From Polyangiaceae bacterium (GTDB taxonomy: Bacteria > Myxococcota_A > Polyangia > Polyangiales > Polyangiaceae): a stretch of 64,000 nucleotides of DNA. How positions within the stretch are numbered: the stretch's first letter is position 1; each line of letters starts with the position of its first letter. The translations under genes were made by a program, and so were the position numbers. Of this stretch, positions 6,144 to 31,288 are shown one piece after another. Where the stretch lies: positions 372,001 to 436,000 of the forward strand of contig JAHBVX010000004.1 of assembly GCA_019637295.1 (NCBI GenBank), given 5' to 3'. A model generated the notes under the pieces. The model worked only from the letters and a program-made list of their open reading frames with translations. It made no database searches and had not been told where the DNA came from.

Positions 6144-6162
6144 GGCAGGACTGGTGCTCGAG

Positions 6163-8649: not shown

Positions 8650-8671
8650 CGCTCGACTCCGTTGCGGCACG

Positions 8672-9916
8672 TTAGACCATTTGGCCCGCCGACGGCACCA
8701 GCGTGAAGACCCGGAGCGCATCTCGCTTCCCGCGCGCGCTCATGGCGGGCAGCTCCCTCAGGTCGCCTGCGTCGGCCAACCGGTCGACCGTCGCTGCCGT
8801 GACCAGCAGGGACACGCCCGCCTCCTTGGTCAGTCCCTCCAGCCGAGCCGCGGTGTTGACGGCGTCGCCGATGACCGTGAACTCGAGGCGGTCGCCCGCG
8901 CCGATGCTGCCCGCCACCACCGGGCCCGAGTGCACCCCAATCCCCGCGCGAAGGGGATCGAGCCCTTCGCGGCCGCGGGTCAGGTTCAACTCCGAGAGCG
9001 CATCGAGCATCTCCCGAGCGCAGGACACTGCCGCCTCGGCGCCGGCGTCCGTAGCCGCGTCGCGCAAGCCAAACACCACCAACATGCCGTCCCCGATGAA
9101 CTTGTCCAGCATGCCTCCGTGCCGCCGCACGACCTCGAGCATGACGCCATGGTAGGCGTTCAGCTGCCGGACGACCTCGGGCGGCGCGAGCCGCTCGCTC
9201 ATCGCCGTGAAGCCCCGCAGGTCGCTGGCCAGCACGGTCACCGTGTGCTCCTCCCCACCCAGCTGGGGCACCACGTCGGGCGCCGCGTCGAGCACACGAC
9301 TGAGCAGGTGCTCGGGCACGAACCGGCGTAGCAGGCGTGTGCGAGCGAAGGACTCGAGGGTGGTGCGAGTACGGTGCGCCATGGCCACTCCGACCGCGCC
9401 CATCAGCGCGATGATGATGGCGATCGGGAGCTGCGCCGGCTCGAACCCGCGCATCGGGAGGATGACCGCGAAGAAGGCGCCCAAGGCCACGAGCGGACCG
9501 ACCAGAGCGGTCATGACGTTCGCGCGGGAGAAGTTGATCGCCAAGATCCCGACCAAGGAGGCGCCCAGCACGTAGACTGGGAACATCTTCGTGTCGTCCG
9601 TCACCGGCGCGGCCACCGCCGCGATGGGGAACACGAACGCCATCGTCAGCACGTCTGCGACCACCGCGGCCACGCTCAGCCACAGGGGCGCGCCCAGGCG
9701 CCGAACGAGGCGATAGATCAACAGAGCGAACACGAAGCAGCTGGCGAAGTAGAGCGTCACGGTCCCGCTGCCATCGCGAAGCAGCGTGGATACGCCCAGT
9801 GTCAGCGGCGTAACGCTGCCGAACACCCAGCAGCGATAGCGCGCGACGTCGAGCTCGATGTCCCTCCTCGCTCTGTCCAAGGTCGCGTCGATGTCTCGGT
9901 CCGCCCCGTGGCTCAT
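8672..9916 (-). CDS. Membrane-bound class III adenylate/guanylate cyclase
   Basis: 414 residues. The first ~190 residues hold several hydrophobic segments (about six membrane helices), followed by a linker and a class III cyclase domain at about residues 215-410. Metal-binding aspartates are in ASDLRGFTAMSER and DKFIGDGMLVVFG; the VIGDAVNTAARLEGL block that closes the family signature is intact. The product should be cAMP or cGMP; I cannot tell which. It sits inside the RiPP operon with 22-base gaps on both sides, and a cNMP-binding protein is encoded four genes upstream. The pair suggests that cyclic nucleotide signalling controls or gates export or production, which is inference. There is no N-terminal sensory domain beyond the membrane helices. 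Confidence 0.88.
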   Translation of the reverse strand: MSHGADRDIDATLDRARRDIELDVARYRCWVFGSVTPLTLGVSTLLRDGSGTVTLYFASCFVFALLIYRLVRRLGAPLWLSVAAVVADVLTMAFVFPIAAVAAPVTDDTKMFPVYVLGASLVGILAINFSRANVMTALVGPLVALGAFFAVILPMRGFEPAQLPIAIIIALMGAVGVAMAHRTRTTLESFARTRLLRRFVPEHLLSRVLDAAPDVVPQLGGEEHTVTVLASDLRGFTAMSERLAPPEVVRQLNAYHGVMLEVVRRHGGMLDKFIGDGMLVVFGLRDAATDAGAEAAVSCAREMLDALSELNLTRGREGLDPLRAGIGVHSGPVVAGSIGAGDRLEFTVIGDAVNTAARLEGLTKEAGVSLLVTAATVDRLADAGDLRELPAMSARGKRDALRVFTLVPSAGQMV

Positions 9917-9938
9917 GGCTCGACTCTACCCCCGCCTG

Positions 9939-15034: not shown

Positions 15035-15056
15035 GTCGCCGCCTCGAACCCTGGAC

Positions 15057-16049
15057 TCAGCCGCCGAAGTCGAGCGCTGGAAACACCAGCGCGATGGGGC
15101 GCTGCGTGCGCGTGATGACGGCGCCGTCGCAGCGCGTACCGCTGGTGAGCCTCAGCGTGGGCCCCGCTCCGCTGGACCACTTGTAGCCCGTCGGCGTGTT
15201 GGCGTCCCGGAGGATCTCTGCGCGAACGGCGATGGGTACGCCGCCGGCTTGCTGCAAGAACGTCTCCACGAGCTGCTCGTTACGCAGCGCTCCCATCATG
15301 CCGGCGCGGGTCGAAGGGAACTCCTCCACGCTCTTGACCTGCCCGATCATGACGCCATGCCGCTCCTTCCGGCCAACCGACGGAGACAGCTCGATGCGCA
15401 TCCCGGGCTCGAGGGTCTTGCCGGTGTAGGAATCGAAGTAGAGCAGCGCCTCGAGCGAGCGCTGCTTGGCCGTCGCACGCTCCAGCGCGACGATAGGGCG
15501 ACCGGCGACCACAGGGTCCCCAGCGGCGGCGCGTACCTCGACCACGTAGCCGTCGATGGGGCTCTCGAGCGTCGCTGCCTCGCGTAGCTGCCGCTCGAGG
15601 CGCTCGAGATCGCCGACCAACCGCGTGCGGTACGCCGCCTGACCCGCGGTGACCGTCCCGGCGTCGGCGTTCTGGTCCAGCTCGGCAATGCGGCGCTTCA
15701 GCCCGTCGATCTGCTCGACCACCGCCGGCTGGGCGATGCGCGCGACGACGTCACCTTTCTTGATCTCGTCACCCGCTTCCACCTCGACCGCGCTGATGGT
15801 CCCCTCCCCGGCCGCCACCACCTCCGTCAGCCCCTCTTCGCCGAGCAAGATGCCCACTCCAGCCACCTTCGTCTGGATGCTGCCGAAGATGCCCCACACG
15901 ATCGCGGTCGCGATGATCAGCGCGCAGCCGGCGAGCGCGAGCCAGCCCTTCGCGTCGGTCACCCGCATCAGCGTGTGCAGCTGCTCGGGTGACATGAGTC
16001 GGTCCAGCGCCGCTTGGCGGAAGACCTTTCTAGCGTCGTTCTCAGCCAT
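15057..16049 (-). CDS. HlyD-type adaptor of the NHLM peptide export system
   Basis: 330 residues. A short cytoplasmic N-terminus with RQAALDRLMSPEQL is followed by one membrane helix (about 36-56). The periplasmic part has a split biotinyl-lipoyl-like hairpin: EGTISAVEVEAGDEIKKGD before and SPIDGYVVEVRAAAGDPV after a short coiled coil (about 110-165). This is the periplasmic adaptor (membrane fusion) protein expected with the two ABC genes downstream (TIGR03794-like). It overlaps the end of the cNMP-binding gene by 8 bases. No outer-membrane TolC partner is present in the window. Confidence 0.9.
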   Translation of the reverse strand: MAENDARKVFRQAALDRLMSPEQLHTLMRVTDAKGWLALAGCALIIATAIVWGIFGSIQTKVAGVGILLGEEGLTEVVAAGEGTISAVEVEAGDEIKKGDVVARIAQPAVVEQIDGLKRRIAELDQNADAGTVTAGQAAYRTRLVGDLERLERQLREAATLESPIDGYVVEVRAAAGDPVVAGRPIVALERATAKQRSLEALLYFDSYTGKTLEPGMRIELSPSVGRKERHGVMIGQVKSVEEFPSTRAGMMGALRNEQLVETFLQQAGGVPIAVRAEILRDANTPTGYKWSSGAGPTLRLTSGTRCDGAVITRTQRPIALVFPALDFGG

Positions 16050-16542
16050 CGAGCAGGTGTCGGCTCAGCGTGTTGAAGCGGGCCCCGGCGCGGTCGAGAT
16101 TATCGAGCACGTTGTCGTCGAGCTCGTCATCGAACTCTGGGTCCGTCGCCTTGCGGACGCGGTCCGAGAGGAACATGGCGACGGCCCGGTAGAAGCGCGC
16201 GGCGAAACCCACGTTCTTCTCCAGCGCTTCGCTCAGAGTCTTGGCTGGGATCGCGCACACGACGATATCGGAGACGGCCTCCACGGTCGCGCTCGGCGGC
16301 TTGAGGTCGACGAACGACATCTCGCCGGCGATCTCGCCGCTGCCCAGCCGCGCGACCTCGCGCTTCTTGGCGCCCTGCAGCACGCGGACCTCGCCCTCGA
16401 GCACGATGTAGAAGGTCTCGGCCGCGACGCCCTGCCGAATCAGCACGCTGGACTTGGGCAGGCGCTTGCGGCGCCCGTTCTGCGCCAGCCACTCGACGTC
16501 CGCGTCGGTGAGTTGACCAAAGATGAACAAGACCTTGCGCAC
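16042..16542 (-). CDS. Cyclic-nucleotide-binding domain protein without DNA-binding domain
   Basis: 166 residues from a GTG at 16542, chosen because a strong GAGGAGG ribosome-binding site lies 4 bases upstream; a longer ATG start would add a basic, low-complexity N-terminus. The cNMP fold covers about residues 15-125, with KSSVLIRQG and the binding cassette-like GSGEIAGEMSFVD. The C-terminus is an acidic helix (PEFDDELDDN), not a Crp-type helix-turn-helix, so it is not a direct transcription factor. In the canonical cassette an Arg contacts the cyclic phosphate after the GE; here the region reads FVDLKPPSATV, so phosphate contact is uncertain. Such single-domain proteins recur in NHLM export loci. 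The co-encoded cyclase at 8672 makes a signalling link likely. Confidence 0.82.
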   Translation of the reverse strand: MRKVLFIFGQLTDADVEWLAQNGRRKRLPKSSVLIRQGVAAETFYIVLEGEVRVLQGAKKREVARLGSGEIAGEMSFVDLKPPSATVEAVSDIVVCAIPAKTLSEALEKNVGFAARFYRAVAMFLSDRVRKATDPEFDDELDDNVLDNLDRAGARFNTLSRHLLDG

Positions 16543-16633
16543 GAAACCTCCTCGGCGCCGCCCCCAACCTCCGGCCCGGCCCATCCTACACGGGGAGGCT
16601 CGCCAGCTTCCATGTTGTTTTGGGCCGACGCGG

Positions 16634-18694
16634 CTACGGCGCGAGCGCCGAGAACGCGTGCGGAGAGCGAGCGAAGGGGATGGCCACGTCCGCCACGTGG
16701 CGCCCGCGAGGGGTCTGCACCCAGGCCGAGTCGTCCGCGTCTTGCACCACGAGCTCGGCCCTGCTCCTCGCGCCCTCGAAGGCCGCCTCCAAGGCGAGGG
16801 GGCTCGACGGATCGATCAGCAGCGGCGTGCCACCGTCCAGGGAGAGGGTCACTCGACCTGGCCACCGTAGCCGCTGGGCCAGCGCCTGCCACAGGGCGAA
16901 GCGTGCCGGACCGCGGGCCGCGAGCAGCGGCGCCAGGTGCGCTCCAGCGACTCGGGTCCGGCGCGCGCGGACGACGGCGCCCGTTGACAGCGTCAGGCCC
17001 TCTCGGTGCTTCGGCGGGCCATGCTCGCTCTCGGTCATCACGGCGGACGCCCGAAAGCCGGGGGCGACACGCTCGTCGAAGCCAGTGTAGAGCAGCTGCT
17101 CGACCACCGTGTCGCCGGCGAGGACGTCCGCCGAGGTGAGGTTCAGGACGCATAGCCGCCCGACCTTCGGCACCCAGAGGACGAGGGCACGCTGCTGCGC
17201 CCGCAGCTCAGCACCCTGAAGGTCAGGACCGTCCGCGCCCCAGGGATCGATGCCGAGCGCCCCGACCTCCGGACGACAGAGCACGTTCGGGCGAGCGAAC
17301 GGCACGAGCAAGTCCGCGGTGCTTACCCCGTGATCGAGGTGCAGCGCAGTGATGCGGGCCGCGAGCCACTCGACCAGCTCGCTCTCGGCGCCCAGCAGCG
17401 CGCCGTGGCGCGCGAAGGCCCGAGCGGGGTTGTCGTCCACGCCGAAGACCGTCGACAGCGCGCGGCCGCCCAGCCGCCCAAGGAACGTGCCCCAGGGCGC
17501 CCAACCGGCGTCCGCAGGCGACGCTCCCTCGATCGGCAGCGCGTCCGGCAGACCAGCGCCGAGCGGGATCGGGCGAGCCGACGCCATGTCCAAGATCGCC
17601 GCGCGACGCGCCGCCCGAGGGCCGGACAGGGGGCTCGCGCCGCATAGCCACTCGCGATGGTAGGCATCGAGAGTAGCGAGCAGGCGCTCGCGCCGCGCCG
17701 CGCCGAGCACCAGCTCGAAGGGTAGGCCAAGATCGCAGTGCAGGGTCACCGTCGGAACCGCGACGCCCGGCGCGTCGAAGCCCCGCACGAGCTGCGAGAT
17801 CGCCTCGCGCGCGCACGCGAGCGCGCGCGTCACGTCGGCGACGGTGGCTCGAGGGAGCTCGCTCGAGAGCGCGACGCTGATCTCGTGCAGCCGCGCCAAC
17901 GCGGCCTGCCAGCTCGCGCGCTCCCTCGTCATCAGCAGCTCGGCGCCCTGCTCGAGCGCTGCCCAGGGCGACGCGCAGCGCAGCGGCAGACGCAGGCCGC
18001 CCACCAGCACGCCTGCGCCGGCCAGCGCGTCCATGGTCGCGCGATCCGAGCCCGCTCGCGCCGCCAGCTCGCCGAGGGCTCCGCTGCCGGCGCCGCCCAG
18101 CCGCCCGAGCAGCGCGGGCATGCCAGCCGTCGCGTCGAGGCTCCGATGCTCGAGCCCGCCGTCCTGCCGGCGCACCTGGAAGACGAAGCCGCTCTCGTCC
18201 AGCGCTCGCAGCGTCGGGTTGAGGCGAAAGCGCGCGTGATCGCGGTACGGCGTCCGCTCCCCGACCGCCCGCAGCAGCGCCGCGAACGGAGCCAGATCGG
18301 GCGCGACGGCGTAGCGAGCGGAGCGGGCGAGCACCCGGTCTTCCGCGCCGAACCGACCCACACCAACCCCGGCCCACAGCCCCGCCGGTGTCGTCCGGGA
18401 CGCCGCGCGGGCCAAGTAACGATAGAGTGAGGTCTCCGCGTGCCGGACGCGCTTGCCGCGTTGGCGACGCCGGGGCGCGAGCGCGTCGACCCGCGCCGCG
18501 AAAGCGGGGCTCGCGAAGGTCAGGGCCCTCATGAACTGCGGCTCCCCCACCGTCCGCTCCCAGAGGGCCTCGCGCTCCCGATCGACTGCGGCCGCGTACC
18601 CGACGTCCGCTACGTCGGCGCCGAACGCGTCGAGCACGTCGATGGGCCACGCGCTCGCTCGCACGACCGCGGCCGGAGCGAGAGCGAGCTTCAT
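16634..18694 (-). CDS. LanB-type lantibiotic dehydratase, glutamylation (N-terminal) domain protein
   Basis: 686 residues. The LanB N-terminal region (PF04738) is marked by YRYLARAASRTTPAGLWAGV at residues 91-110, the counterpart of the conserved RTPFGLFAG block of NisB-like dehydratases. Full LanB proteins (about 1000 residues) glutamylate Ser/Thr with Glu-tRNA and then eliminate glutamate in a C-terminal SpaB_C domain. That domain is absent here and is found instead at the end of the MBL fusion at 20443-22701, so this is a split system. Its start overlaps the stop of the MBL gene by 4 bases. Expected substrates are Ser/Thr residues in the two nearby precursors. A PEARL-type (amino acid adding) role is an alternative, since such enzymes share the fold. 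Confidence 0.82.
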   Translation of the reverse strand: MKLALAPAAVVRASAWPIDVLDAFGADVADVGYAAAVDREREALWERTVGEPQFMRALTFASPAFAARVDALAPRRRQRGKRVRHAETSLYRYLARAASRTTPAGLWAGVGVGRFGAEDRVLARSARYAVAPDLAPFAALLRAVGERTPYRDHARFRLNPTLRALDESGFVFQVRRQDGGLEHRSLDATAGMPALLGRLGGAGSGALGELAARAGSDRATMDALAGAGVLVGGLRLPLRCASPWAALEQGAELLMTRERASWQAALARLHEISVALSSELPRATVADVTRALACAREAISQLVRGFDAPGVAVPTVTLHCDLGLPFELVLGAARRERLLATLDAYHREWLCGASPLSGPRAARRAAILDMASARPIPLGAGLPDALPIEGASPADAGWAPWGTFLGRLGGRALSTVFGVDDNPARAFARHGALLGAESELVEWLAARITALHLDHGVSTADLLVPFARPNVLCRPEVGALGIDPWGADGPDLQGAELRAQQRALVLWVPKVGRLCVLNLTSADVLAGDTVVEQLLYTGFDERVAPGFRASAVMTESEHGPPKHREGLTLSTGAVVRARRTRVAGAHLAPLLAARGPARFALWQALAQRLRWPGRVTLSLDGGTPLLIDPSSPLALEAAFEGARSRAELVVQDADDSAWVQTPRGRHVADVAIPFARSPHAFSALAP

Positions 18695-20433
18695 CGAGGA
18701 CCAGAGGCCGCGGACGCGACCCGCGCGTGGTCCTCGATGATGGCGTCGATGTCGCTGGCGCGAGCGGCCTGAATGAGCTGCACGGCCGCGAAGCGACGCA
18801 TGACCGCGGCATAGCTCTCCCCGGTCAACCCCGCGCGCTCCATCCAGCGACGCGTGTCCTCGTCCGAGTGAAACCCGAATCGGGCTCGGAAGCCGTCGGA
18901 GGTGGCCTGCACGGCCTCCGCCGAGACCGCGAGGCCTCGGCGCGTCGCGTCTTCCTCCGCGAGCAGCGCGAGCAGCGCCTTCTTCTCGATGACCGCGCGA
19001 CTCTCACCCGCACGGGCGATCACGTCGAGGCCCGTCGAGTCATCCCGCTCGGGCTCCGACGGGGCGAGCGTGCGAACCGCTTCGCTGCCAACCCGCTCGC
19101 CCCGAGGTCCGTAGTAGCGCAGGTAGTGGGTCAGCGGATCCCCGAGCTCGTCCTCCGGAACGGGCACGGCTGGCGCGAGTAGGCGCCCCCCTTGCACGAC
19201 GATGTTCTTCTCGTAGCTGCGCGCGTCTCCCGCGAGCCAGAACACGATCCCAGGTATCGTCCCGTCGAGCGCGTCGAGCAGGCCCCGACCCGACAGGTGC
19301 GTGAAGGAGCGAGCGCGCGGGTGCCGGCCACGCTCGACGCGGTACGGTACGGCGCCGAAGTCGATGTGGCGCTCGATGCGCTCGCCTCCACCCGCCTCCA
19401 CGCTCAGCTGCCAGACGCCCCCGTGCGCGTGAAGAGCGCTGGGTATGCTGCTGGGGTGGGCGAGCTCGGCCGTGAACCACGAGGCCATGCTCCCCGTGAG
19501 GCACTGGTCGAGCCGATCCTCGAGACGCGCGCGCTCCGCGGGGTCGTCGAGCCCCGCGAGGGTGGCGACCTCGACGGGCTCCCACACCACGGGCCGAGTA
19601 GGCACGGTCTCGCAGAAGCCCAGCGCGCCAGCGACGCGAACCGGACGCTCTCCGCGAGCCCTGACCTCCACGGCGTCGCCGGGCAGCAGGGTCGCCGCTC
19701 GCTCGGGCCCGAGGCGTTCCCACAGGAGCGCCGTCACTTCATCGGCCGACAGCGGGAAGGCATAGCGATTGAACCACGCGTGCCGCCCCGAGAACGCGAG
19801 CCCCGACGCATACGGGAACACGAACGCCGGGTCCACGGCGCAGGCCGTCTCGAGCCAGTCCACGACCTCTTGCGCATCGAACCGTGCGCCTCGGGAGCGC
19901 AGGTAGCCCATGCTCGCGCGCACCACGGGTTGGTACTTCGCGGAGACGACGTCGACCGCGCCGTGCTCCCGAAGCACGCGGGCGCCGTCCGCGGGGGAAA
20001 CCTCCGCGTCGGCCATGTGCCAGAAGGTGCCGCGGGGGTCGGAGACGACCACGCCCATCTCGGGCTCGTCGTGCCCCGATGGCGTCGCCAGGATCCGGGT
20101 CTGACCGAGCTGAACGCTGGCCCACGGCGCGCAGATGCGCAGATCCCCGAAGCCCATCCGCCCGAGTCCCTCGAGCAGCACCGGATCGTCCGGGACGACC
20201 ACCGGCAGCTCCCTGGGCAGCGTCTCGAGTGACGCGGCGTGAAAGTGATCGAAGTGCGCGTGGGTGAGGATCAGCGCGCTGGGCGCGGGCATCCGCTCCA
20301 AGTGCAGTCGCCGCTGCGGGTGATACTCGAGGATCCCGTCGAGCAGCGTCTCCGCGAAGACCGGATCCACGAGCACTCGCTGGTCCTCCGTCTCGAGGTA
20401 GAGCCCTGCGTGCCCCAGCGTCCCGATTCGCAT
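18691..20433 (-). CDS. Metallo-beta-lactamase-fold protein with C-terminal helical extension
   Basis: 580 residues. The first ~260 residues are an MBL-fold domain with the metal motif THAHFDHFH at residues 57-65 and later conserved Asp/His positions (for example HMADAE, and SGHDEPE). MBL-fold enzymes are mostly hydrolases or oxidoreductases with one or two metal ions. The middle is not recognised. The last ~110 residues contain KKALLALLAEEDATRRGL and DEDTRRWMERAGL, a helical pattern that looks like SurA/PpiC-type chaperone segments seen in some peptide-maturation proteins; that resemblance is weak. It lies 9 bases after the MBL-SpaB_C gene and overlaps the LanB gene, so it is part of the maturation set. 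Reaction unknown. Confidence 0.7.
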   Translation of the reverse strand: MRIGTLGHAGLYLETEDQRVLVDPVFAETLLDGILEYHPQRRLHLERMPAPSALILTHAHFDHFHAASLETLPRELPVVVPDDPVLLEGLGRMGFGDLRICAPWASVQLGQTRILATPSGHDEPEMGVVVSDPRGTFWHMADAEVSPADGARVLREHGAVDVVSAKYQPVVRASMGYLRSRGARFDAQEVVDWLETACAVDPAFVFPYASGLAFSGRHAWFNRYAFPLSADEVTALLWERLGPERAATLLPGDAVEVRARGERPVRVAGALGFCETVPTRPVVWEPVEVATLAGLDDPAERARLEDRLDQCLTGSMASWFTAELAHPSSIPSALHAHGGVWQLSVEAGGGERIERHIDFGAVPYRVERGRHPRARSFTHLSGRGLLDALDGTIPGIVFWLAGDARSYEKNIVVQGGRLLAPAVPVPEDELGDPLTHYLRYYGPRGERVGSEAVRTLAPSEPERDDSTGLDVIARAGESRAVIEKKALLALLAEEDATRRGLAVSAEAVQATSDGFRARFGFHSDEDTRRWMERAGLTGESYAAVMRRFAAVQLIQAARASDIDAIIEDHARVASAASGPR

Positions 20434-20442
20434 CGCGCGCTA

Positions 20443-22701
20443 CTACCCTGGGTTGCTCGATGCGCCAAGTCGGCGCTGCATGCCGCGCGCGACCCGGGCA
20501 TGTCCCTCGGCATCGAGGCCGTGACGGTGCAGATGAAACAGCACGACCGCGCCGACCACCGAGCGAAGCCCGGTGCAGAGCGTTCCTGCATGCCACGAGC
20601 TCGCGAGCGCGTCCGCCAGCGCGCGGTTGGTCTCGAGGTAGGACTGCAGCACCGGAGTGAGCTCCACCCCAGCGCGCGACGCCAGCGTCTCGAGCTCATC
20701 CACCGGGGGCCCAACCTCGCCGCTGTCCGCCAGGCCGAGTTCGGCGCCGTAGCGCTGCCACATGGCCCGGGCCTCTGCTGGGTCGGGCAGGATGCGGGCG
20801 ACCAGATCCGCGGCCACCGCGCTCACGAGCACCTCGGCGGCGATGAGCGCGCGACCGTCGGCGGCGAGCGCGTCCAGGGTCATCCACGCGGCCGTATCCG
20901 CGTCGAACCAAGCATGGACCGCCTCCATCGCCTCGGCGCCGCCGAAGCGCTCGGTCTCGGGCTCGTAGACGCTGGCGAAGGCGCGCTCGAGCTGCCCACT
21001 GCTCGTGAGCTGGTGCAAGATCGCCTCGACCTCGTGGCTCAGCTCGGCGTCGCCGAGGAAACGCAGGCGCAGGTCCGGCGGCTTGCGCATGAAGAAGAAG
21101 CACGCGAGCCGGCCGGAGCTCCGCCACGCGAGCAGCGCGGGCGCCAGCGCGCGAAAGACCGCGCGCGCGCTGGCGATCGCCGAACCCCCGGCGCGGACGA
21201 GGGCGACGTTGTGTTGGTGCCACTGGCGCGCGCCGAAGGGCCAGCGGTGGAGGGCGGCTCGCTCTACCCGAAATGAGCCGTCCCCGCGCCGCGCCAACCC
21301 CTCTGTGGGGCGTAAGAGGCTCACCAGCGCCGGCGACGCGATGCTCTCCGTCTCGGAGCTCGAGCGCGCCGCGGCGCGCCGGAGCACCTCCTCCGGTGGC
21401 GGATCGATGGCGAGGCGCGGCGCCCCGCCGCCCTCGAGACGAGGCCCGAGACCGCGCTCCCAGTACCAGGGCGCGCCCCCGTCCGCGTAGGGTACGGTAC
21501 ACTTCGCGCCGCAGCGCTCCGCGGTGTCGAGCAGCGCGTCGCCGTCGTTCATGCACACCTGCCGTGCCGCCCAGTCGGGCTGGGGCACGAACAGCAGGTA
21601 GCGACTCACCGAGGAGAACAGGTACTGGATGGGGTACAACGCGAAGCCCCGATAGCCGCCGAACAGCACGTCCACCTCGCCCTGCTCGCGCCGCAGCGCG
21701 CCGGCGAGGTCGGCCACGTCGCCGGCCCGATCCCTCCCCGAGTCGGCGATCACGAACACGCGCCCGGCGGCCGACTCGAGCGAGTAGGTGCAGCCCACGT
21801 TGCGAACTTCGGGGTGCAGGCACTCTCCGGTCGTCGGTTGTTCGCCAAAGAATGGATGGGCGCGCAAGACCGACTCGCCGAGCGAAATCGCCTGGCCGGG
21901 GCGCAGGCGGTGGACGCGCGAGAACCCGAGCTGCTCGAGGCGACGAGCCATGTCGATCGCCAGCAGCGACTCGCGCTCGACCTCGGGCACGTAGATGGGC
22001 GCGTCGGCGCCCAGTCGCAGCAACGTCGACAGATCGAAGTGATCCGGGTGCGAGTGGGTGATGACCACCGCCGCGAGCGGAGGCAACTCTCCGTATCGCC
22101 AGGGCTGATAGGTCGGCGGGTAGCGCCCCGAGGTCGGAAGGAAGAACGGATCGACGAGCACGCGCTCGGCGCGACCGAGCAGCGCAGTGGCATGCCCGAT
22201 GAACACGACGTCCGCGTCGAGGGCCTCGGGGTCGGGCTCCGCCTGCTCCGCGAGGGCGCCGCAGGCGTCGAAGGCGTCGAACAGGGCCCGGCCCACGCCG
22301 CCGTTCGGACGCCGCGCGCCGCGCTGAAGCTCGGAGATCCAGGGCGCCAGCTCGCCGAGCGAGCTCTCGGGAAGCGCGACGGAGCCGAGCACTCGCTGCT
22401 CCCGCGACACGACCAGCGCGCTCGGTCGAACCCGCTCCGCCGGCGGGTACAGGCACTCCTCGCGCAGGACGCCGGGACGACGGTAGCGCGACGCGAGGTC
22501 GCGGGAGAACGTCAGCGCGAGCAGCTCCTCTGAGCGGCGAACCACCTCGGCCCGGGAGGTGACCTGCCGGATCGCTACGCAGTCTCGCCGCAGCGCTAGG
22601 TCGACACCGCCTCCTAGGGCGCTGCCGAAGGGCGTGTCGTCTTCGTACTCGAGCTCGAACCGGACGTCGTCCGCTAACCGTCGCAGGCGGGGGAGCGACA
22701 T
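20443..22701 (-). CDS. Metallo-beta-lactamase domain fused to SpaB_C/thiopeptide-type domain
   Basis: 752 residues from the ATG at 22701 (a TTG two codons earlier is possible). Residues 1-160 are not recognised. Residues about 163-430 are an MBL fold: FIGHATALL, LVDPFFLPTSGR, the metal site THSHPDHFD at 215-223, and VFVIADSGRD. Residues about 500-745 resemble the SpaB_C/thiopeptide-type bacteriocin biosynthesis domain (PF14028), with ACFFFMRKPPDLRLRFLGD and the hallmark VYEPETERFGG. In LanB enzymes this domain eliminates glutamate from glutamylated Ser/Thr; stand-alone forms do other chemistry such as cycloaddition. Fusion to an MBL fold is unusual. It is the first enzyme gene after the precursors and probably works with the LanB protein at 16634. 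Confidence 0.75.
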   Translation of the reverse strand: MSLPRLRRLADDVRFELEYEDDTPFGSALGGGVDLALRRDCVAIRQVTSRAEVVRRSEELLALTFSRDLASRYRRPGVLREECLYPPAERVRPSALVVSREQRVLGSVALPESSLGELAPWISELQRGARRPNGGVGRALFDAFDACGALAEQAEPDPEALDADVVFIGHATALLGRAERVLVDPFFLPTSGRYPPTYQPWRYGELPPLAAVVITHSHPDHFDLSTLLRLGADAPIYVPEVERESLLAIDMARRLEQLGFSRVHRLRPGQAISLGESVLRAHPFFGEQPTTGECLHPEVRNVGCTYSLESAAGRVFVIADSGRDRAGDVADLAGALRREQGEVDVLFGGYRGFALYPIQYLFSSVSRYLLFVPQPDWAARQVCMNDGDALLDTAERCGAKCTVPYADGGAPWYWERGLGPRLEGGGAPRLAIDPPPEEVLRRAAARSSSETESIASPALVSLLRPTEGLARRGDGSFRVERAALHRWPFGARQWHQHNVALVRAGGSAIASARAVFRALAPALLAWRSSGRLACFFFMRKPPDLRLRFLGDAELSHEVEAILHQLTSSGQLERAFASVYEPETERFGGAEAMEAVHAWFDADTAAWMTLDALAADGRALIAAEVLVSAVAADLVARILPDPAEARAMWQRYGAELGLADSGEVGPPVDELETLASRAGVELTPVLQSYLETNRALADALASSWHAGTLCTGLRSVVGAVVLFHLHRHGLDAEGHARVARGMQRRLGASSNPG

Positions 22702-22794
22702 GGCCAAGAGCGTCGACTCGCGGGCTCGGCTGCGCCGGCGTCCGCTCGGTGGGCCCGAAGGCCCGGACGAACGCCAGCGCTACCTCACTCTAGC

Positions 22795-23163
22795 TCACCA
22801 GCAGCACATGATGGTGCTGCCCGCCATGTCCTTCGGGTTGGGCACGTTGGGGGCGGTGGTGGGGGCCTTGAGCACGGGCAAGGTCTGCACCTTCACCACC
22901 GTCTGCTTCGGCTGAATCGCTCCGGTCCCGCCGACGACGCCCTCGAGCTGGTTGTCGGAGAGCTGCGGGTTGATGTGCGCCTCGGTGGCGTCCATCACCT
23001 CGACCATCTCGGACTGCGTGAACGACAGCCCGAGCTTGGTTGCCTCCGCCATCGCCAGCTTGATGTACGCCTCTCGTCCCAAGGCTTCGTCGAGCTGCGC
23101 CTGAAGCGCGGAGTTCTTGTTCACATGCTCTTCATAGAACTTGACCACATCATCCTTAGCCAT
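22795..23163 (-). CDS. Nif11-type RiPP precursor peptide with C-terminal CCW
   Basis: 122 residues. The ATG at 23163 is preceded by a strong purine-rich ribosome-binding site (GGAAGAGGAGAG, 4 bases away). Residues 1-77 form an acidic helical Nif11-like leader (VVKFYEEHVNKNSALQAQL, then LGLSFTQSEM and LSDNQLEGV), ending in Gly78-Gly79, the expected C39 cleavage site. The 43-residue core (80-122) holds six Thr, one Ser, two adjacent Cys and a single Trp, and ends GSTIMCCW. Ser116 and Thr117 beside Cys120-Cys121 could be dehydrated and form thioether rings, and Trp122 is the obvious halogenase target; both are inferences. It lies 93 bases upstream of the MBL-SpaB_C gene and 131 bases downstream of the HGS-repeat precursor. 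Confidence 0.9.
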   Translation of the reverse strand: MAKDDVVKFYEEHVNKNSALQAQLDEALGREAYIKLAMAEATKLGLSFTQSEMVEVMDATEAHINPQLSDNQLEGVVGGTGAIQPKQTVVKVQTLPVLKAPTTAPNVPNPKDMAGSTIMCCW

Positions 23164-23186
23164 CGTGCTCTCCTCTTCCGATAAGA

Positions 23187-23200
23187 TAGGGACACCCCTA
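23187..23200. promoter_or_regulatory. Dyad in the leader region of the Nif11 precursor gene
   Basis: TAGGG-ACAC-CCCTA is a perfect 5-bp inverted repeat with a 4-base spacer, 24-37 bases upstream of the precursor start codon. It could be an operator or a small RNA hairpin adjusting expression of the precursor relative to neighbouring genes. A poor -10-like TATCTT overlaps its minus-strand downstream side. Chance occurrence is possible. Confidence 0.3.
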
Positions 23201-23294
23201 CCGTCCTCAGGGGAGAGACGATGGCACGGCGAGCCACGGATGGCTACGAGCGAACGAACCTACGTCGCGAGCCGCCGCTCCGACGCGCCCGGCG

Positions 23295-23606
23295 CTACCA
23301 GGAGCCGTGCGAGCCGTGGCTGCCGTGTGAGCCGTGGCTGCCGTGCGAGCCGTGGCTGCCGTGCGAGCCGTGGCTGCCATGGGAACCGTGGCTGCCGTGC
23401 GAACCGTGACTGCCGTGCGAACCGTGGCTGCCGTGCGAGCAGTGCTGCGCGGGGAAGGTTCCGTCGTCCGCGCCCGGGACTTGCTCGCAGTTGTCGCGGG
23501 CCTTCTCGACGACCGCCTCTTCGCTCTTGCTCAGCATTCCGCGAGCGCTGCGGGTGAACGTGGGCAAGCCGGGCCCGTCTTTCTTCGGCGGCACGCTCCG
23601 GAGCAT
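23295..23606 (-). CDS. Putative RiPP precursor with HCS-(HGS)15-W C-terminus
   Basis: 103 residues from the ATG at 23606; a second ATG at 23537 is an alternative start. Residues 1-54 are a mixed leader-like part (MLSKSEEAVVEKARDNCEQV, then PGADDGTFPAQ) with almost all G/C third positions. Residues 55-57 are HCS, 58-102 are fifteen uninterrupted HGS triplets, and 103 is the only Trp. Codon variants inside the repeats (CAT, GGT, AGT, TCA, TCC) are all synonymous in this frame, while the two opposite-strand frames I checked suffer a stop or amino-acid changes. No double-glycine site is seen. It is 131 bases upstream of the Nif11 precursor on the same strand. The HxS pattern recalls HxsA of radical-SAM His-Xaa-Ser systems, but no radical SAM gene is present. 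I infer a second substrate of this RiPP system. Confidence 0.75.
   Translation of the reverse strand: MLRSVPPKKDGPGLPTFTRSARGMLSKSEEAVVEKARDNCEQVPGADDGTFPAQHCSHGSHGSHGSHGSHGSHGSHGSHGSHGSHGSHGSHGSHGSHGSHGSW
23301..23435 (-). repeat. 18-base tandem repeat encoding (HGS)15
   Basis: 135 bases made of seven and a half 18-base units, each encoding HGSHGS. Serine codons alternate strictly between the TCN and AGY families across the array, except at the last unit before Trp, which shows that the array grew by duplication of 18-base units. All seven internal deviations from the unit are third-position changes in the HGS frame. Confidence 0.92.
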
Positions 23607-23634
23607 AACGCAATCTGGCCGGGCAGGCCAACCG

Positions 23635-25215
23635 TCAGAGCAGCGGCCGAGATGCGCGGCGAACGACCGGTAAAGCCAGCAGGAGCAACCAGCCCCAATG
23701 CGCGGAGCCGGGTCCGGGGGCCCAACCGGCCGCTCGGCAGGCGCAGCCCTCGTCCAGGGGCTCGAGCGTGGTGGAGCTGCTCTTGGGGCCGTCGATGCCC
23801 GCGTCCGCACCCCCGCCTCCGAGCGCGCTGCCGCCCGAGCCGCGCACGGTCACGGTGGCCTGTGGACTGGGGCACGCCAGCGGGGTTCCGTCCAACGTGC
23901 GCAACCGGAAGGTGTGGCTCATCTCACCGAGTCCAGCGGTTGCCTGCACGGAGAACTCGAAGCGGGCCACCGCCCCCACGGGCGTCTCGGAGTCCGGACT
24001 CGCGACCACGCCGGCCCAGGTGTCGGGAACGACCAGCTCGAGCGTCTTGCCTTCGTGAGCGTCCAGGGAGGTGAGCTGCGGCTCGCCGACCTTCCACGGG
24101 CTCTGGCCCACGTTTCGAAAGTCGATCGTGACCTTGCCGAGCGCACCGCTGGACAGCGTGTCGGGATGGATCAGGTCCACGAGCTCCGCGGCCCACTCGG
24201 GGGGCGGCGCGCCGAGAGTCTGGGGCATGCCCTCGTCGATCTCGCCGTCGCAGTCGTCGTCCACGCCGCTGCAGGTCTCCGGGATCGGCTCCTTCAACGC
24301 GCGGCAGGCGAGCGTGCCGGCCTCGCAGCGCATGCGTCCCTCGGCGCACACGCCGAGCAAACCCGTGGCGCAGGACTGCTTGCCCCCCTCGGGGTCGGGG
24401 CCATCGCAGGCGGCGAAGGCGCCCCATTTGCAGCTGCTCGAACACGTTCGCGTTCGTGTGCCACAGTCACCGCAGGCCTCGGACTGCTTCGCCCCCGCCG
24501 CACACTCCCCTTGTCCCGAGCAGTTGCTCCAGGAGCCCCACTGGCAGTTCGAGCCGCAGGTGCGACTACGCTTGCCGCAGTTGCCGCAGTTCTCCGTCTG
24601 AGTCTGCCCTGCCGTACACGCGCAGGTCGTCTCGCACTCGACTCCGGGCCGGGTGCCGTACGAGCCCTGACTGACCCAGTGGCTCGACGAGTGCCCGCAG
24701 GAGCCGGAGTAGGGGTCCCGCGAGACGTTGCTCACTCGCGACTCGAAATGCAGGTGATAACCGGAGCTGCGTCCCGAGCTCGCGCTCTGCCCGATCACCT
24801 GACCGCAGGAGACGGACTGCCCGACGGACACCTTGGCCGAGCCGTTCTTGAGGTGGGCGTAGTACGAGCGCTTGCCGTCCGCGTGGGCGATGCGAACGTA
24901 GTTGCCGAAGCCGCCGCCGCAGGTGTTCGTGAGCGAGCCCACATCGGCGCAACCTTGGCTGACGACCTCGACGGTACCCTTGGCCGCCGCCACCACGTTC
25001 GTACCGTAGGGCAGCGGGTAGTCGTTGCCCTTGTGACCGTTGTAGCACTTCGAGCCGCAACCGTGGTCCAGACAACCCGCGGCGGTGCCGTTGTGGTCGT
25101 AGCCGTAGCCGAGGTTGATCGCGGCGTCGAACGGCCGACGATACTGGGTGGCGGACGCCAGCGTCGCGACGAACACGAGGCTCACGGCGAGCAGCAAGCT
25201 GGGCAGTCGACTCAC
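23635..25215 (-). CDS. LytM/M23 metallopeptidase with cysteine-rich repeats and MYXO-CTERM tail
   Basis: 526 residues from a GTG at 25215 that overlaps the upstream TGA (GTGA) and has AAGGAG upstream. A signal peptide (SLLLAVSLVFVATLASA) leads into an M23 domain with zinc ligands His61 and Asp65 (HKGND), His121 (YAHL) and HLH at 154-156. After the catalytic domain there are thrombospondin-like Cys repeats (CGNCGKRSRTC, then CGDCGTRTRTC), an acidic MopE-like metal motif (GVDDDCDGEIDEG), and a beta-rich segment. The protein ends with CACRAAG, a hydrophobic helix and RRAS, a MYXO-CTERM signal for myxosortase-type processing. It should be a surface-exported peptidoglycan or protein endopeptidase. 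The downstream RiPP gene begins only 28 bases later, with a weak TGGCC/GGCCA hairpin between. Confidence 0.88.
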   Translation of the reverse strand: MSRLPSLLLAVSLVFVATLASATQYRRPFDAAINLGYGYDHNGTAAGCLDHGCGSKCYNGHKGNDYPLPYGTNVVAAAKGTVEVVSQGCADVGSLTNTCGGGFGNYVRIAHADGKRSYYAHLKNGSAKVSVGQSVSCGQVIGQSASSGRSSGYHLHFESRVSNVSRDPYSGSCGHSSSHWVSQGSYGTRPGVECETTCACTAGQTQTENCGNCGKRSRTCGSNCQWGSWSNCSGQGECAAGAKQSEACGDCGTRTRTCSSSCKWGAFAACDGPDPEGGKQSCATGLLGVCAEGRMRCEAGTLACRALKEPIPETCSGVDDDCDGEIDEGMPQTLGAPPPEWAAELVDLIHPDTLSSGALGKVTIDFRNVGQSPWKVGEPQLTSLDAHEGKTLELVVPDTWAGVVASPDSETPVGAVARFEFSVQATAGLGEMSHTFRLRTLDGTPLACPSPQATVTVRGSGGSALGGGGADAGIDGPKSSSTTLEPLDEGCACRAAGWAPGPGSAHWGWLLLLALPVVRRASRPLL

Positions 25216-26302: not shown

Positions 26303-29035
26303 TCAAACGGTGGAAGAGCCCCGCTCCCCACGCGCGTGGAGCGTGGCCTGAGCCGCCGCCAGCCGCGCGATCGGCACCCGAAACGGCGAGCAGGACACAT
26401 AGGCGAGGCCAACCTGCTCGAAGAACCCGATGCTCTTCGGATCTCCGCCATGCTCGCCGCAGATGCCGAGCGACAGCTCGGGCCGCTGGGCTCGACCGCG
26501 CTCGCAGGCGATGCGCACCAGCTCTCCGGCGCCGCGCTGGTCGAGCGAGACGAAGGGATCCGTCGGGAAGATGCCGCGGGTCACGTACTCCGGCAGGAAG
26601 CGCCCAGCGTCGTCGCGCGACAAACCGAGCGCCGTCTGGGTCAGATCGTTGGTCCCGAAGGAGAAGAACTCCGCGGTCTCGGCGATCTCTCCGGCGAGCA
26701 GCGCGGCGCGGGGCAGCTCGATCATCGTGCCGAACTTGAACTTCACGGTGACCCCTTGCTCGGCGAACACCTCTTGGCTCACCCGATCCACCACCTCGCG
26801 CATCAGCTCGAGCTCGCGCTTGCTGAGCGCGAGCGGGATCATGATCTCCGGCAACACTCCCCCGCCCTCTTTCTGGACGACGCACGCCGCCGTCAAGATG
26901 GCGCGCACCTGCATGTCCGAGATCTCGGGGTAGGTCACCGCCAGACGCACGCCGCGATGACCGAGCATGGGGTTGAACTCGTGCAGGTCGGCCACCTTGC
27001 GCGTGACCTCGGGCACCGTCACGCCCATCAGCTGGGCCATTTGCTCGAGCTGCTCCGGGTCCTGCGGCAGGAACTCGTGCAGCGGAGGATCGAGCAGTCG
27101 AATGGTCACCGGCAGACCACGCATCTCGCGAAAGAGCGCGGTGAAGTCGCCGGTCTGGAACGGGAGCAGCTTCTGCAGCGCGAGACGGCGAGCCGGCGCG
27201 TCCTTGGCCAGGATCATCTCGCGCATGACCGGGATGCGCTCCTCGTCGAAGAACATGTGCTCGGTCCGGCACAGTCCGATCCCCTCCGCGCCGAGCTGGT
27301 GAGCCTTCTTGGCCTGCTCGGGAGTGTCTGCGTTGGTGCGCACGCGCATCCGCCGGGTAGCGTCGGCCCAGCGCATGAGCTCCTCGAGCTCCCCGCCGAG
27401 TCGTGGCTCCACCTTGGGGACGGACCCCAGGTACACCGCGCCGGACGAACCATCGATCGTCATCAGCTCGCCGAGGCGAATCATCACGTTCTCGCCGCTC
27501 GGTTGGCGCGCCGTCATGATCTGCAGCTCGTAGTCGATGGTGATGGAGGAGCAGCCGACGACGCACGCCCGTCCCATTCCTCGAGCGACGACCGCGGCGT
27601 GACTGGTCGCGCCACCGCGCGCGGTGAGCACGCCCCGTGCGGCCTTCATGCCGTGCAGGTCCTCGGGGGACGTCTCGACGCGCACCAAGATCACGTCCTC
27701 GCCCCGCTCCGCGCGGGCCTCGGCCTCGTCGGCGCTGAACACCGCATGACCGGTGACGGCGCCCGGCGACGCCGGCAGCCCGTGAGCCACGGCGGGCGGG
27801 GCCGCCTTGGCGTCCACCGAGGGGAACATGAGCTGCTCGAGGCGGTCGGCGTCCACCCGCAGCAGGGCTTCGTCCCGAGAGATGCGCCCTTCCCCCACCA
27901 AGTCCACGGCGATCTTCACTTCCGCGCGCGCGCTGCGCTTGCCGTTGCGCGTCTGGAGCAGGAAGAGCTTGCCCTCCTCGACGGTGAACTCGAGGTCCTG
28001 CATGTCGCGGAAGTGCGCCTCGAGCTTGGCTTGCTGCTCGAACAGCTCGGCGTAGACCGTGGGCATGCTCTCTTCCAGAGATTGGCCCGCAGACGTCGCG
28101 GTCTTGGCCAGCGGCCGCGGCGTGCGTATTCCCGCCACCACGTCCTCGCCCTGAGCATTGGGCAGCCACTCGCCGAAGAAGCGCCGCTCTCCGGTGCTGG
28201 GGTCCCGCGTGAACGCGACGCCCGTCGCGCTGGTCTCTCCGAGGTTGCCAAACACCATGGCCTGGACGTTGACGGCGGTGCCCCACTCGCTGGGGATCTG
28301 GTGCATCCGGCGATAGAGCACCGCCCGGTCGTTGTTCCAGCTGCGAAAGACCGCTTCGACCGCGCCGAGCAGCTGCGCCATCGGGTCGCTCGGGAAGCCG
28401 CCGGCTTGCTCGCCGAGGATGCGCTGGTAGTCATCGACCACCCCGCGTAGCAGGGCGGCGGAGAGCGCCGTGTCCGGCACCAGCCGCGCGAGCTCCTCGA
28501 CGTCCTCGGTGACGGCGAGGCCACGCTCTTTGGCGTGAGCGCGACGTGCGCGAGTCATCGCTGCGTCGAACTCGTGCGACTTGATCTGCAGCACCACGCT
28601 GCCGAACATGGCGAGCAGTCGGCGGTACGCGTCGAACACGAAGCGCTCGTTGTTGGTCTTGCGGGTGAGGCCCGCGGCGACTTCGTCGTTGAGCCCGAGG
28701 TTGAGGATCGTGTCCATCATGCCCGGCATGCTGGCGCGCGCGCCGCTGCGCACGCTGATCAAGAGCGGGTTGGCCGGATCGCCGAAGCGCTTTCCGGTCT
28801 GCTGTTCGAGCCACCGCAGCGACGCGCGGATGTCACCCTCGAGCTCGTCCGGGAGCCGGCCGCCGGCCGCGTTGTACTGACCGCACACCTCGGTCGTGAT
28901 GGTGAAGCCCGGCGGCACGTGGACGCCGAGGTTCGCCATCTCGGCCAGGTTGGCACCCTTACCGCCGAGCAAAGCCTTCTGGTCTGCGCCGCCTTCGGCG
29001 TTACCCGGTGCGAAACGATGAATACGCTGTGCCAT
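26303..29035 (-). CDS. ppdK: Pyruvate, phosphate dikinase
   Basis: 910 residues from the ATG at 29035 (AQRIHRFAPGNAEGG). The usual three-domain layout is present: an N-terminal ATP-grasp domain with LLGGKGANLAEMA, the central phosphohistidine domain with GGATSHAAVVARGMGR (catalytic His near 478), and a C-terminal PEP/pyruvate barrel with LGICGEHGGDP carrying the catalytic Cys. It interconverts pyruvate, ATP and phosphate with PEP, AMP and diphosphate in the cytoplasm. It follows glyS on the same strand (175-base gap), an association known from other proteobacteria. Length and motifs are standard; the open frame upstream of 29035 is shadow. Confidence 0.97.
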   Translation of the reverse strand: MAQRIHRFAPGNAEGGADQKALLGGKGANLAEMANLGVHVPPGFTITTEVCGQYNAAGGRLPDELEGDIRASLRWLEQQTGKRFGDPANPLLISVRSGARASMPGMMDTILNLGLNDEVAAGLTRKTNNERFVFDAYRRLLAMFGSVVLQIKSHEFDAAMTRARRAHAKERGLAVTEDVEELARLVPDTALSAALLRGVVDDYQRILGEQAGGFPSDPMAQLLGAVEAVFRSWNNDRAVLYRRMHQIPSEWGTAVNVQAMVFGNLGETSATGVAFTRDPSTGERRFFGEWLPNAQGEDVVAGIRTPRPLAKTATSAGQSLEESMPTVYAELFEQQAKLEAHFRDMQDLEFTVEEGKLFLLQTRNGKRSARAEVKIAVDLVGEGRISRDEALLRVDADRLEQLMFPSVDAKAAPPAVAHGLPASPGAVTGHAVFSADEAEARAERGEDVILVRVETSPEDLHGMKAARGVLTARGGATSHAAVVARGMGRACVVGCSSITIDYELQIMTARQPSGENVMIRLGELMTIDGSSGAVYLGSVPKVEPRLGGELEELMRWADATRRMRVRTNADTPEQAKKAHQLGAEGIGLCRTEHMFFDEERIPVMREMILAKDAPARRLALQKLLPFQTGDFTALFREMRGLPVTIRLLDPPLHEFLPQDPEQLEQMAQLMGVTVPEVTRKVADLHEFNPMLGHRGVRLAVTYPEISDMQVRAILTAACVVQKEGGGVLPEIMIPLALSKRELELMREVVDRVSQEVFAEQGVTVKFKFGTMIELPRAALLAGEIAETAEFFSFGTNDLTQTALGLSRDDAGRFLPEYVTRGIFPTDPFVSLDQRGAGELVRIACERGRAQRPELSLGICGEHGGDPKSIGFFEQVGLAYVSCSPFRVPIARLAAAQATLHARGERGSSTV

Positions 29036-29209
29036 CGCTCGTTGTCTCGCAGAGCGCTCGGGCGGACGCAAGCTGGTCCGTGGCCTCGACCCGGACTGGG
29101 CGGCTCGCGAAACGAATGCGCGAGGGCGCGATGCCGCGCTGCGCACCGCACAGGCGTGCCCGCAGCGCGCAGCAGCCTAGCGCAAACTCTGCGACCAGGC
29201 GCCCTGGGG

Positions 29210-31288
29210 CTACTTGGCGAGCAAGTTGAAGTTCGCGATCGCGACGCAGATGCGCTCGATCTTGGCCATCAGGCGCAGGCGATTGTCTCGCACGCGCGGC
29301 TCCTCGGCCATGACCAGCACGTCGTCGAAGTAGCGACCGAGGGTGGGCGCGAAGGCGGCGATGGCGGAGACGGCTACGCCGTAGTCTTTCGCGGCGTGGG
29401 CAGCGAGGACGTCGCGCTCGAGCCGCTCGAGGGCGGCGAACAGCTGCGCCTCGGTCGGGTGCACGTCGCCGGTGACGCTCCCGGGGGGCGACGGATCGCC
29501 GGCGGGCGCGGTCTTGGCGATGTTGGTCGCCCGCTTGAACACCTCGCCCGCCGACGCGCGAGACTCGGCATCGAGCGCGCCGAGCGCCGAGGCACGCAGC
29601 GCGACGTCCTGGGGGCGATCCGGGTCGCTGGCCAGGCAAGCATCCACGGCGTCCTGCGGCAGGCGCTCGATGAGCAGCCCACGCAGGCGTTGCTCGAAGA
29701 AAGGCGCGAGCTTCTCGGCGGTCTGGTCGGGCCCCAGCTCGAGGCGACCTGCGTCGTGGGCGGCGTAGCCGAGCGCGATCGCGCGGCCGAGCGAGAGGTC
29801 CCAGCCGTGTTCGAGCACGGTGCGCAGGATACCGAGTGCGGCGCGGCGTAGCGCGAGCGGGTCGGCCGTGCCGGTGGGCATGATGCCGACCGCGAAGCAG
29901 CCGACGAGGGTGTCGAGTCGATCGGCGAGCGCCACCAGCCCGCCAGCCGGGCTCGGCGCCGGTGGATCCTCGGCGCCCCGAGGCTGGTAGTGCTCCGCGA
30001 TCACCGCCGCCACAGCCGGCTCTACGCCAGCGGCGAGCGCGTAGGCGTGGCCCATCTCGCCTTGCAGCTCGGGGAACTCGCCGACCATGAGCGTGGTCAG
30101 ATCGCACTTGGCCAGCGCGGCGCCGGCGACCGCAGCGGCGATCGTGGCCCGATCGAGGCCGACCTCCGCGCCCAGCTCGGCGACCAGCTGCTCCATGCGC
30201 CGCACCTTGTCGCCGATGCTCCCCAGGCGCTTGTGGAACACGACGGCGTCGAGCGCCGGCCGCCGCTCCGCCAGGGGCCTCTGCAGATCCGTGTCGTAGA
30301 AGAACTTCGCGTCCGCGAGCCGCGCCCGCATCACCCGATCATTGCCGCGACGGATGTTCTGCGGGTGAAGAGCGGTGTTCACCACGGCGAGGTAGCTCGG
30401 CAGGAGCTTGCCGTCCTTGCCGCGCACACCGAAGTAGCGCTGGTGCCCCCGCGCCACGTCCAAGATCACCCGCTCCGGCAGCGCCAAGAAGGCGGGATCG
30501 AAGCCGCCTACCACGACATGAGGCTCTTCCACCAACGACGCGTTCTCGTGCACCAAGAACTCGTCATCGATCAGCGTGCCGCCGGCCTCCTTGGCTGCCT
30601 GCTCGACCCGCTCGACCAGCGTGCGCCGTCGCTCGTCGACATCCACCAAGACGTGACGGTCACGAAGCGCGGCGACGTACTCCGAGGCCTGTCCGAGCTC
30701 GAAGGGCTCGGGCGCCAAGAAGCGATGTCCGCGGCTCGCGCGACCCGAGGTCACGTTCGCGAACGTCATCTGCAACACCTGTGCACCGAGCAGCGCCAGC
30801 AGCCAGCGAACCGGACGACCGAAGGCCGTGTCCCCATCGCTCCAGCGCATGGACTTGCGAAATGGGATGTGCGCGCACACGCCCTGCAGCAGTTCAGGCA
30901 GCAGTTCGAGCGCCGGCGCTCCGGGCTCTCGATGCCGCCCGGCGAGGTACTCGCCCTTGTCCGTCTGCACGCGATGAAGGTCGCTGACGGCGACCCCGAG
31001 CTTACCCGCGAAGCTCTCCGCGGCTCGAGTCGGCTTGCCCGCGGCGTCGAAGGCCACCCGTGCGGGGGGGCCTGTCACCTCCTCGTCCAGGTCCGGCTGT
31101 CGGCTCGCCACATCGGTGACCCAGACGGCGAGCCGGCGCGGCGTGCCCGCAGCAGAGATGTGGCCGTGAGCGAGGCGTCGCTCGCTCAAGCTGCGCCCGA
31201 GCAGCCCCGGCAGCGCTTCCACGGCGCCCGCCACGAAGGAAGCGGGCAGCTCTTCGGTTCCAATCTCGAGCAGCAGGACCTCGGCCAT
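29210..31288 (-). CDS. glyS: Glycyl-tRNA synthetase beta subunit
   Basis: 692 residues starting EVLLLEIGTEELPASF, the hallmark N-terminus of bacterial GlyS. KPTRAAESFAGK, HQRYFGVR and KRLGSIGDKVRRM follow in the expected order, and the C-terminal anticodon-binding region is complete. With the alpha subunit (GlyQ) it forms the alpha2beta2 enzyme that charges tRNA-Gly; GlyS provides tRNA binding. glyQ is usually directly upstream but is not in this window: the gene upstream is divergent. ppdK lies downstream. Confidence 0.97.
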   Translation of the reverse strand: MAEVLLLEIGTEELPASFVAGAVEALPGLLGRSLSERRLAHGHISAAGTPRRLAVWVTDVASRQPDLDEEVTGPPARVAFDAAGKPTRAAESFAGKLGVAVSDLHRVQTDKGEYLAGRHREPGAPALELLPELLQGVCAHIPFRKSMRWSDGDTAFGRPVRWLLALLGAQVLQMTFANVTSGRASRGHRFLAPEPFELGQASEYVAALRDRHVLVDVDERRRTLVERVEQAAKEAGGTLIDDEFLVHENASLVEEPHVVVGGFDPAFLALPERVILDVARGHQRYFGVRGKDGKLLPSYLAVVNTALHPQNIRRGNDRVMRARLADAKFFYDTDLQRPLAERRPALDAVVFHKRLGSIGDKVRRMEQLVAELGAEVGLDRATIAAAVAGAALAKCDLTTLMVGEFPELQGEMGHAYALAAGVEPAVAAVIAEHYQPRGAEDPPAPSPAGGLVALADRLDTLVGCFAVGIMPTGTADPLALRRAALGILRTVLEHGWDLSLGRAIALGYAAHDAGRLELGPDQTAEKLAPFFEQRLRGLLIERLPQDAVDACLASDPDRPQDVALRASALGALDAESRASAGEVFKRATNIAKTAPAGDPSPPGSVTGDVHPTEAQLFAALERLERDVLAAHAAKDYGVAVSAIAAFAPTLGRYFDDVLVMAEEPRVRDNRLRLMAKIERICVAIANFNLLAK

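Follow-up and report, generated by a model that had tools for sequence, protein, structure and literature searches.

A conserved HxsA4-type His-Xaa-Ser precursor gene linked to glyS in a Polyangiaceae bacterium, and its probable maturation in trans

Main finding

Judged by its sequence, a short gene on the minus strand of the window (i.e. the whole stretch of 64,000 nucleotides from a Polyangiaceae bacterium that was analysed) is a real, conserved HxsA4-type precursor of a His-Xaa-Ser radical-SAM system. The family has been named before, and what is new is the stand-alone organisation of the gene, away from the enzymes, and not the kind of precursor. The reading that we prefer, with a probability of roughly 0.7, is that the HxsA4 precursor is transcribed independently and undergoes maturation in trans by Hxs enzymes whose genes are dispersed. 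According to this proposal hxsA4 would have a promoter of its own that yields a leaderless mRNA, the first 50 residues of the protein would serve as a recognition leader, and a lone HxsB (encoded on contig C8) would modify the HGS units in trans, together with HxsD and radical-SAM enzymes of the HxsC4 type that are encoded at other loci. The basis that can be read from the sequence consists of the HxsA4 membership, the conserved peptide, the linkage to glyS and the presence of HxsB, HxsD and HxsC4 genes elsewhere; from there we infer leader recognition, maturation in trans and the repeated modification of His or Ser.

The HGS peptide and its family

The initial annotation described a precursor-like protein ending in HCS(HGS)15W with an HGS peptide under selection, and the reading frame is as described: positions 23606 to 23298 of the minus strand encode 103 amino acids, with the stop directly after the Trp. 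The (His-Gly-Ser)15 array occupies 23301 to 23435 (minus strand), with HCS ahead of it (23436-23444) and the Trp behind it (23298-23300), and was reported by TRF as an 18-bp repeat of 8.1 copies whose score of 227 is the top of nine rows in the window. Compared to an alternating CACGGCAGC/CACGGCTCG consensus nine bases deviate. The variation had been said to be synonymous only, and this holds: all seven single changes are synonymous in the HGS frame and the other two jointly turn AGC into TCC, by which Ser is kept, whereas in the other five frames 0, 0, 1, 1 and 5 of the same nine changes are synonymous. The stop that had been noted on the opposite strand was recovered as well, the plus-strand ORF ending at 23409, and two opposite-strand frames each acquire a stop. 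A random single change in the array is synonymous with a chance of 0.22 (0.33 when only transitions are counted), and seven out of seven then corresponds to about 2.5e-5 using 0.22, with the proviso of some dependence among tandem copies. Selection on HGS finds stronger support than this within-array count in the switch of Ser codons between species, in which the codon box is swapped under a constant HGS peptide: only AGY is used in the congener G014 (where the contig end cuts the array, so that the sequence downstream of it is missing), only TCN in G029, and both alternate in the window. Synonymous variation and codon switch together support the selection that had been claimed.

The leader region comprises 50 codons (23445-23594, minus strand) and contains the blocks LPxFxxSARGML and PAQ ahead of the array, as based on seven aligned proteins out of the 11 that are encoded near glyS (see below) and on an alignment of 44 leaders. 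The latter was confined to arrays ending in Trp, plus the cut array of L059, and thereby leaves out L065, where the frame continues beyond the array Trp. The protein matches the HxsA4 profile (NCBIfam NF038313) with 90.7 bits when read from 23606 and 89.3 bits when read from 23594 (cut-off 55), the match covers profile positions 2 to 93 of 93 and thus reaches the last one, and the Trp directly follows the HxS array, as in HxsA4. All seven glyS-linked proteins tested (of 11) match the profile too. A comparison with HxsA, as had been suggested, was therefore fitting, with HxsA4 as the match found. Classic HxsA (TIGR03979) was rejected, as nothing in the genome matches it at E 0.01.

The regular spacing of Gly allows for the reading that the product is an unmodified collagen-like Gly-X-Y protein: the Pfam collagen repeat scores 34.1 bits (cut-off 27.2), Gly occurs at every third position and, in HxsA4 proper, varies no more than His and Ser do once the initial one or two triplets are set aside. 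At six distant HxsB-linked loci, however, the middle residue varies while His and Ser/Thr hold the period, with Gly 127, Ser 43, Ala 13, Cys 7 and Val 5 times, besides others, in 208 triplets. These loci include Elusimicrobia, Omnitrophota and Woesearchaeota records and come from 13 that were examined, six near-pure HGS loci being left out and L137 falling under the threshold; moreover, the triplets were chosen by H-x-S/T, so that the middle position alone is a fair test. Within these selection caveats the variable middle residue makes His and Ser the positions of interest and speaks against collagen. The presence of the protein also tracks that of HxsB, which is a further point against collagen. 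We consider a collagen-like protein unlikely, with a slim chance of being correct.

Start codon and transcription

The start had been placed at the ATG at 23606, but the gene probably begins four codons further on, at the GTG at 23594, because that codon is conserved in the glyS-linked orthologs. The likely gene, as supported by the NF038313 match and the conserved GTG, then runs from 23594 to 23295 on the minus strand, stop included (99 codons plus the stop). At the GTG ten of the 11 glyS-linked proteins read V-P-P-K and the eleventh, also with GTG, V-S-Q-K; the residues ahead of it show no visible conservation. A minus-10-like element, TATGCT (23602-23607, minus strand), begins 13 bases before the GTG, and the corresponding TAnnnT begins 12 to 13 bases before it in ten of the 11 orthologs and 16 before it in the eleventh, a placement in ten of 11 that was reached by none of 5000 base shuffles (which ignore relatedness). 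The combination TATGCT-N7-GTG occurs a single time in the window, versus 0.11 expected. Since both the GTG and its spacing from TAnnnT are conserved, we read 23594 to 23295 as the likely gene of a putative leaderless mRNA, which suggests that hxsA4 has a promoter of its own. Against this, a sigma-70 consensus scan of 22700-23900 reported no promoter at hxsA4. In the same region a consensus scan for terminators found three sites on both strands (shuffle mean 0.5), among them a weak terminator-like hairpin (23190-23206, minus strand) between hxsA4 and the Nif11-like gene that follows.

Linkage to glyS and distribution among relatives

In relatives the gene that is conserved upstream of hxsA4 is glyS (29210-31288, minus strand; TIGR00211, 716.2 bits), and in the window ppdK (26303-29146, minus strand; TIGR01828, 1283.8 bits) lies between the two. 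The HMM check of these two names covers the window copies alone. In 11 genomes of six genera hxsA4 is located downstream of glyS or glyS-ppdK on the same strand, and near none of these 11 genes was an hxsB found. The intervening ppdK is present in the window and in four of the ten glyS-linked relatives; the window has, in addition, an M23 peptidase and other sequence between ppdK and hxsA4. The set of 11 includes G024, with a short array that scores 44.3 bits and hence remains below the HxsA4 cut-off, and the glyS-linked relatives L110, L115 and L122 are filed under Polyangiaceae or Myxococcota.

Among the 108 genomes of the family 35 contain HxsA4 and 39 HxsB over the cut-off, distributed as both in 33, HxsA4 only in two, HxsB only in six and neither in 67 (Fisher p 2.7e-19, relatedness not corrected). 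The two HxsA4-only exceptions are G052, which has two partial HxsB matches below the cut-off (317 and 306 bits, on two contigs), and G062, where the repeat comes without a leader. The 42 HxsA4 matches over the cut-off divide into 18 within 10 kb of HxsB, ten that are glyS-linked without HxsB and 14 that are neither; two of these 14 look like chance repeats (G062 and G019:C567) and several are on short contigs. As 12 leader-bearing matches thus adjoin neither HxsB nor glyS, separation from HxsB is not peculiar to the glyS-linked lineage. The genomes are mostly drafts, so that a location on another contig may conceal closeness of hxsA4 and hxsB; in G021 the two genes are found on one contig, 209 kb apart.

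Two further Hxs loci are recorded here as separate observations. A contig filed under a Klebsiella pneumoniae MAG (L114), which is probably misbinned, carries an HxsA4 block that resembles those of deltaproteobacterial MAGs, and on a Woesearchaeota archaeal contig (L142) two ORFs rich in HxS lie close to HxsB, HxsD and HxsC4-like genes.

Hxs enzymes elsewhere in the genome

With 16 His in its last 49 residues, and a gene at a housekeeping locus apart from HxsB, the protein might be an unmodified His-rich metal-binding or storage protein, for which the Hxs link would be merely historical. Two observations speak against this: HxsB is present in all 11 glyS-linked genomes, versus 40 of the 108 overall (E 1e-30), and both the leader and the terminal Trp are conserved in the seven aligned glyS-linked proteins. 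We regard this alternative as improbable, with a modest share of the probability left to it, and return to maturation by Hxs enzymes in trans.

The genome of the window encodes two HxsB proteins over the cut-off, on contigs C8 and C21, neither of which is the contig of the window. In an HxsB tree of 38 rows, drawn from a search of 62 loci and lacking two distant HxsB (L045 and L051) as well as those at unfetched loci, G052 among them, the lone copy, G000:C8:35554-36957, groups with one copy each of G014, G038, G023, G024, G029 and G030 (support 98/96), so that this clade of seven consists entirely of glyS-linked genomes, that of the window included. The C21 copy, which lies beside an hxsA4 of its own, belongs to a separate deep clade (100/100), G020 to G022 form a clade of their own (100/99), and additional HxsB copies occur in G014 and G023. 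We infer the candidate pairing of the window precursor with the lone HxsB from co-occurrence and from this tree; either HxsB of the genome, C8 or C21, could act on the protein.

The 20 kb surroundings of the C8 HxsB contain no HxS/T repeat ORF, and in the 20 stretches around HxsB (L082-L101) no further such ORFs of at least four triplets were found, some of these stretches reaching only a short way on one side. Among the matches listed around the lone HxsB (query loci L082, L083 and L087) a phosphatidylglycerophosphatase-like gene is common to five loci and an RND-efflux region to four, and neither looks like an Hxs partner.

The other enzymes are found at further loci of the glyS-linked genomes, with HxsD over the cut-off in all 11 and HxsC4 in nine. 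In the window genome the HxsD over the cut-off is the copy of the C21 block, and a copy on C1 scores 49.6 against a cut-off of 50; HxsC4 was found there, and HxsC over its own cut-off was not. The C1 copy is part of an island (G000:C1:867490-876421, L148) of two radical-SAM genes, a methyltransferase-like gene, HxsD and a ClpB-like gene, which is largely conserved in other genomes with a glyS-linked hxsA4 (the ClpB-like gene in five other genomes) and is tied to the window precursor by co-occurrence only. The structure of HxsD as predicted from 13 relatives (mean pLDDT 83.8) has an alpha/beta fold with one long helix. With respect to a PqqD-like recognition domain, Foldseek gave no match for it at E 0.001 or below, and VIA-align returned an archaeal aIF2 alpha domain as the best match (Z 8.0) with mixed folds close behind, PqqD being absent from the matches listed.

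A more specific proposal is that a single Polyangiaceae-like lineage carries a stand-alone hxsA4 with a leaderless promoter beside glyS in six genera, co-inherited with a lone HxsB that acts in trans and with scattered partners. In this full form we hold the proposal tentatively and at less than even odds. If it were true, the product would be a constitutive cellular His/Ser polymer with repeated modifications and not a clustered secondary metabolite. A single precursor and a lone HxsB with matching distributions among genomes offer a reduced test pair, without the numerous radical-SAM genes of the embedded loci.

The adjacent LanB cluster

The initial annotation placed the HGS peptide directly upstream of a Nif11 precursor and proposed a polydehydroalanine or metal-binding product with a halogenated Trp, which would tie it to the adjacent Nif11/LanB/halogenase cluster. 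There is indeed a gene 131 bases on, on the same strand (22795-23163, minus strand), but we call it Nif11-like, as it remains below both Nif11 cut-offs (PF07862, 21.7 bits against 23.8; TIGR03798, 19.4 against 32.3). It is followed by genes for a fusion of a metallo-beta-lactamase (MBL) and Lant_dehydr_C, a second MBL protein, Lant_dehydr_N, HlyD and a C39 ABC exporter, and more distantly by those for a second ABC, a cyclase, a Trp halogenase and a cupin-8. As a system in its own right this is a split LanB cluster with metallo-beta-lactamase domains (5151-23163, minus strand), the Nif11-like precursor of which ends in MCCW. Beyond it, a second Trp-halogenase-like protein is encoded on the plus strand (2367-5138), with about 420 residues ahead of the halogenase domain in the longest ORF.

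Such an order, from hxsA4 via the Nif11-like gene to LanB genes, transporters and a Trp halogenase, would agree with an HGS peptide that is the substrate of the adjacent split LanB, its Ser dehydrated and its Trp chlorinated by the nearby halogenase. For a Mucilaginibacter cluster PMC9062424 describes a His-Xaa-Ser precursor together with a LanB and two radical-SAM enzymes unrelated to HxsB/HxsC, and because of this published pairing we leave a very small chance to the idea. Against it, no relatives of the cluster were found, at E 1e-5, at the 40 HxsA4 loci of other genomes that were compared. These comprise 35 loci with 36 of the 40 over-cut-off matches outside the window genome and five loci below the cut-off, the loci of G084, G086, G087 and G088 being left out; nine of the ten glyS-linked loci among them include more than 5 kb downstream. 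The MBL-LanB gene is present in five of the 108 genomes at E 1e-20, with the window genome included and the congener G014 not, and in the remaining four no HxsA4 or HxsB exceeds the cut-off. Considering the 40 loci without the cluster and these four genomes, we take the adjacency of hxsA4 and LanB as chance in this species. In addition, the Nif11 leader HMMs of Pfam and NCBIfam gave no row for the HGS protein, and the terminal Trp after the array is common to the leader-bearing relatives with an intact end, including those in genomes without the LanB cluster. The tie to the cluster and the polydehydroalanine product that had been put forward hence find no support at the 40 loci, nor does the halogenated Trp cap in view of the relatives without the cluster, and we judge the Nif11-like neighbour to belong to a separate system. 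A reading based on the neighbourhood can thus misassign such a precursor to the wrong cluster, in this case the adjacent LanB cluster.

Comparison with known systems

Haft and Basu are said to have described, in 2011, Hxs precursors as encoded beside hxsB, hxsD and hxsC. The window gene has no such neighbours. Like HxsA4 (NF038313), the window protein has a leader, an HCS start, an HGS array and a terminal Trp, and, like HxsA4 systems, the glyS-linked genomes also carry HxsB, HxsD and mostly HxsC4. Unlike in those systems, the gene is not beside hxsB, is linked to glyS, has an apparent leaderless promoter of its own and has its enzymes dispersed. The same genome offers an embedded HxsA4 (G000:C21, L004:9786-10088) of 100 amino acids and 94.9 bits, which has HASHAS followed by ten HGS and ends in HGQW, and which, unlike that of the window, is part of a single block that also contains HxsD, HxsB, two more radical-SAM genes and an HxsC4-like gene; the latter remains below the HxsC4 cut-off, and the HxsB is the one in the other deep clade. 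Near this embedded locus (L004:2582-5794, minus strand) we also observed a protein of 1071 amino acids with a B12-type radical-SAM first half and a PapB-like radical-SAM/SPASM second half.

In the open-licence literature searched we found no biochemical evidence for any Hxs modification. Hxs terms occur in PMC8446631 and PMC6537148, and the maturation of His-Xaa-Ser peptides by HxsB/HxsC is termed putative in PMC9062424. The latter source also describes TvgA/TvgB, which resembles our reading in that the core consists of a short repeated motif on which a radical-SAM enzyme acts, and differs from the window in its motif, TVGG, and in its chemistry, the conversion of valine to cyclopropylglycine.
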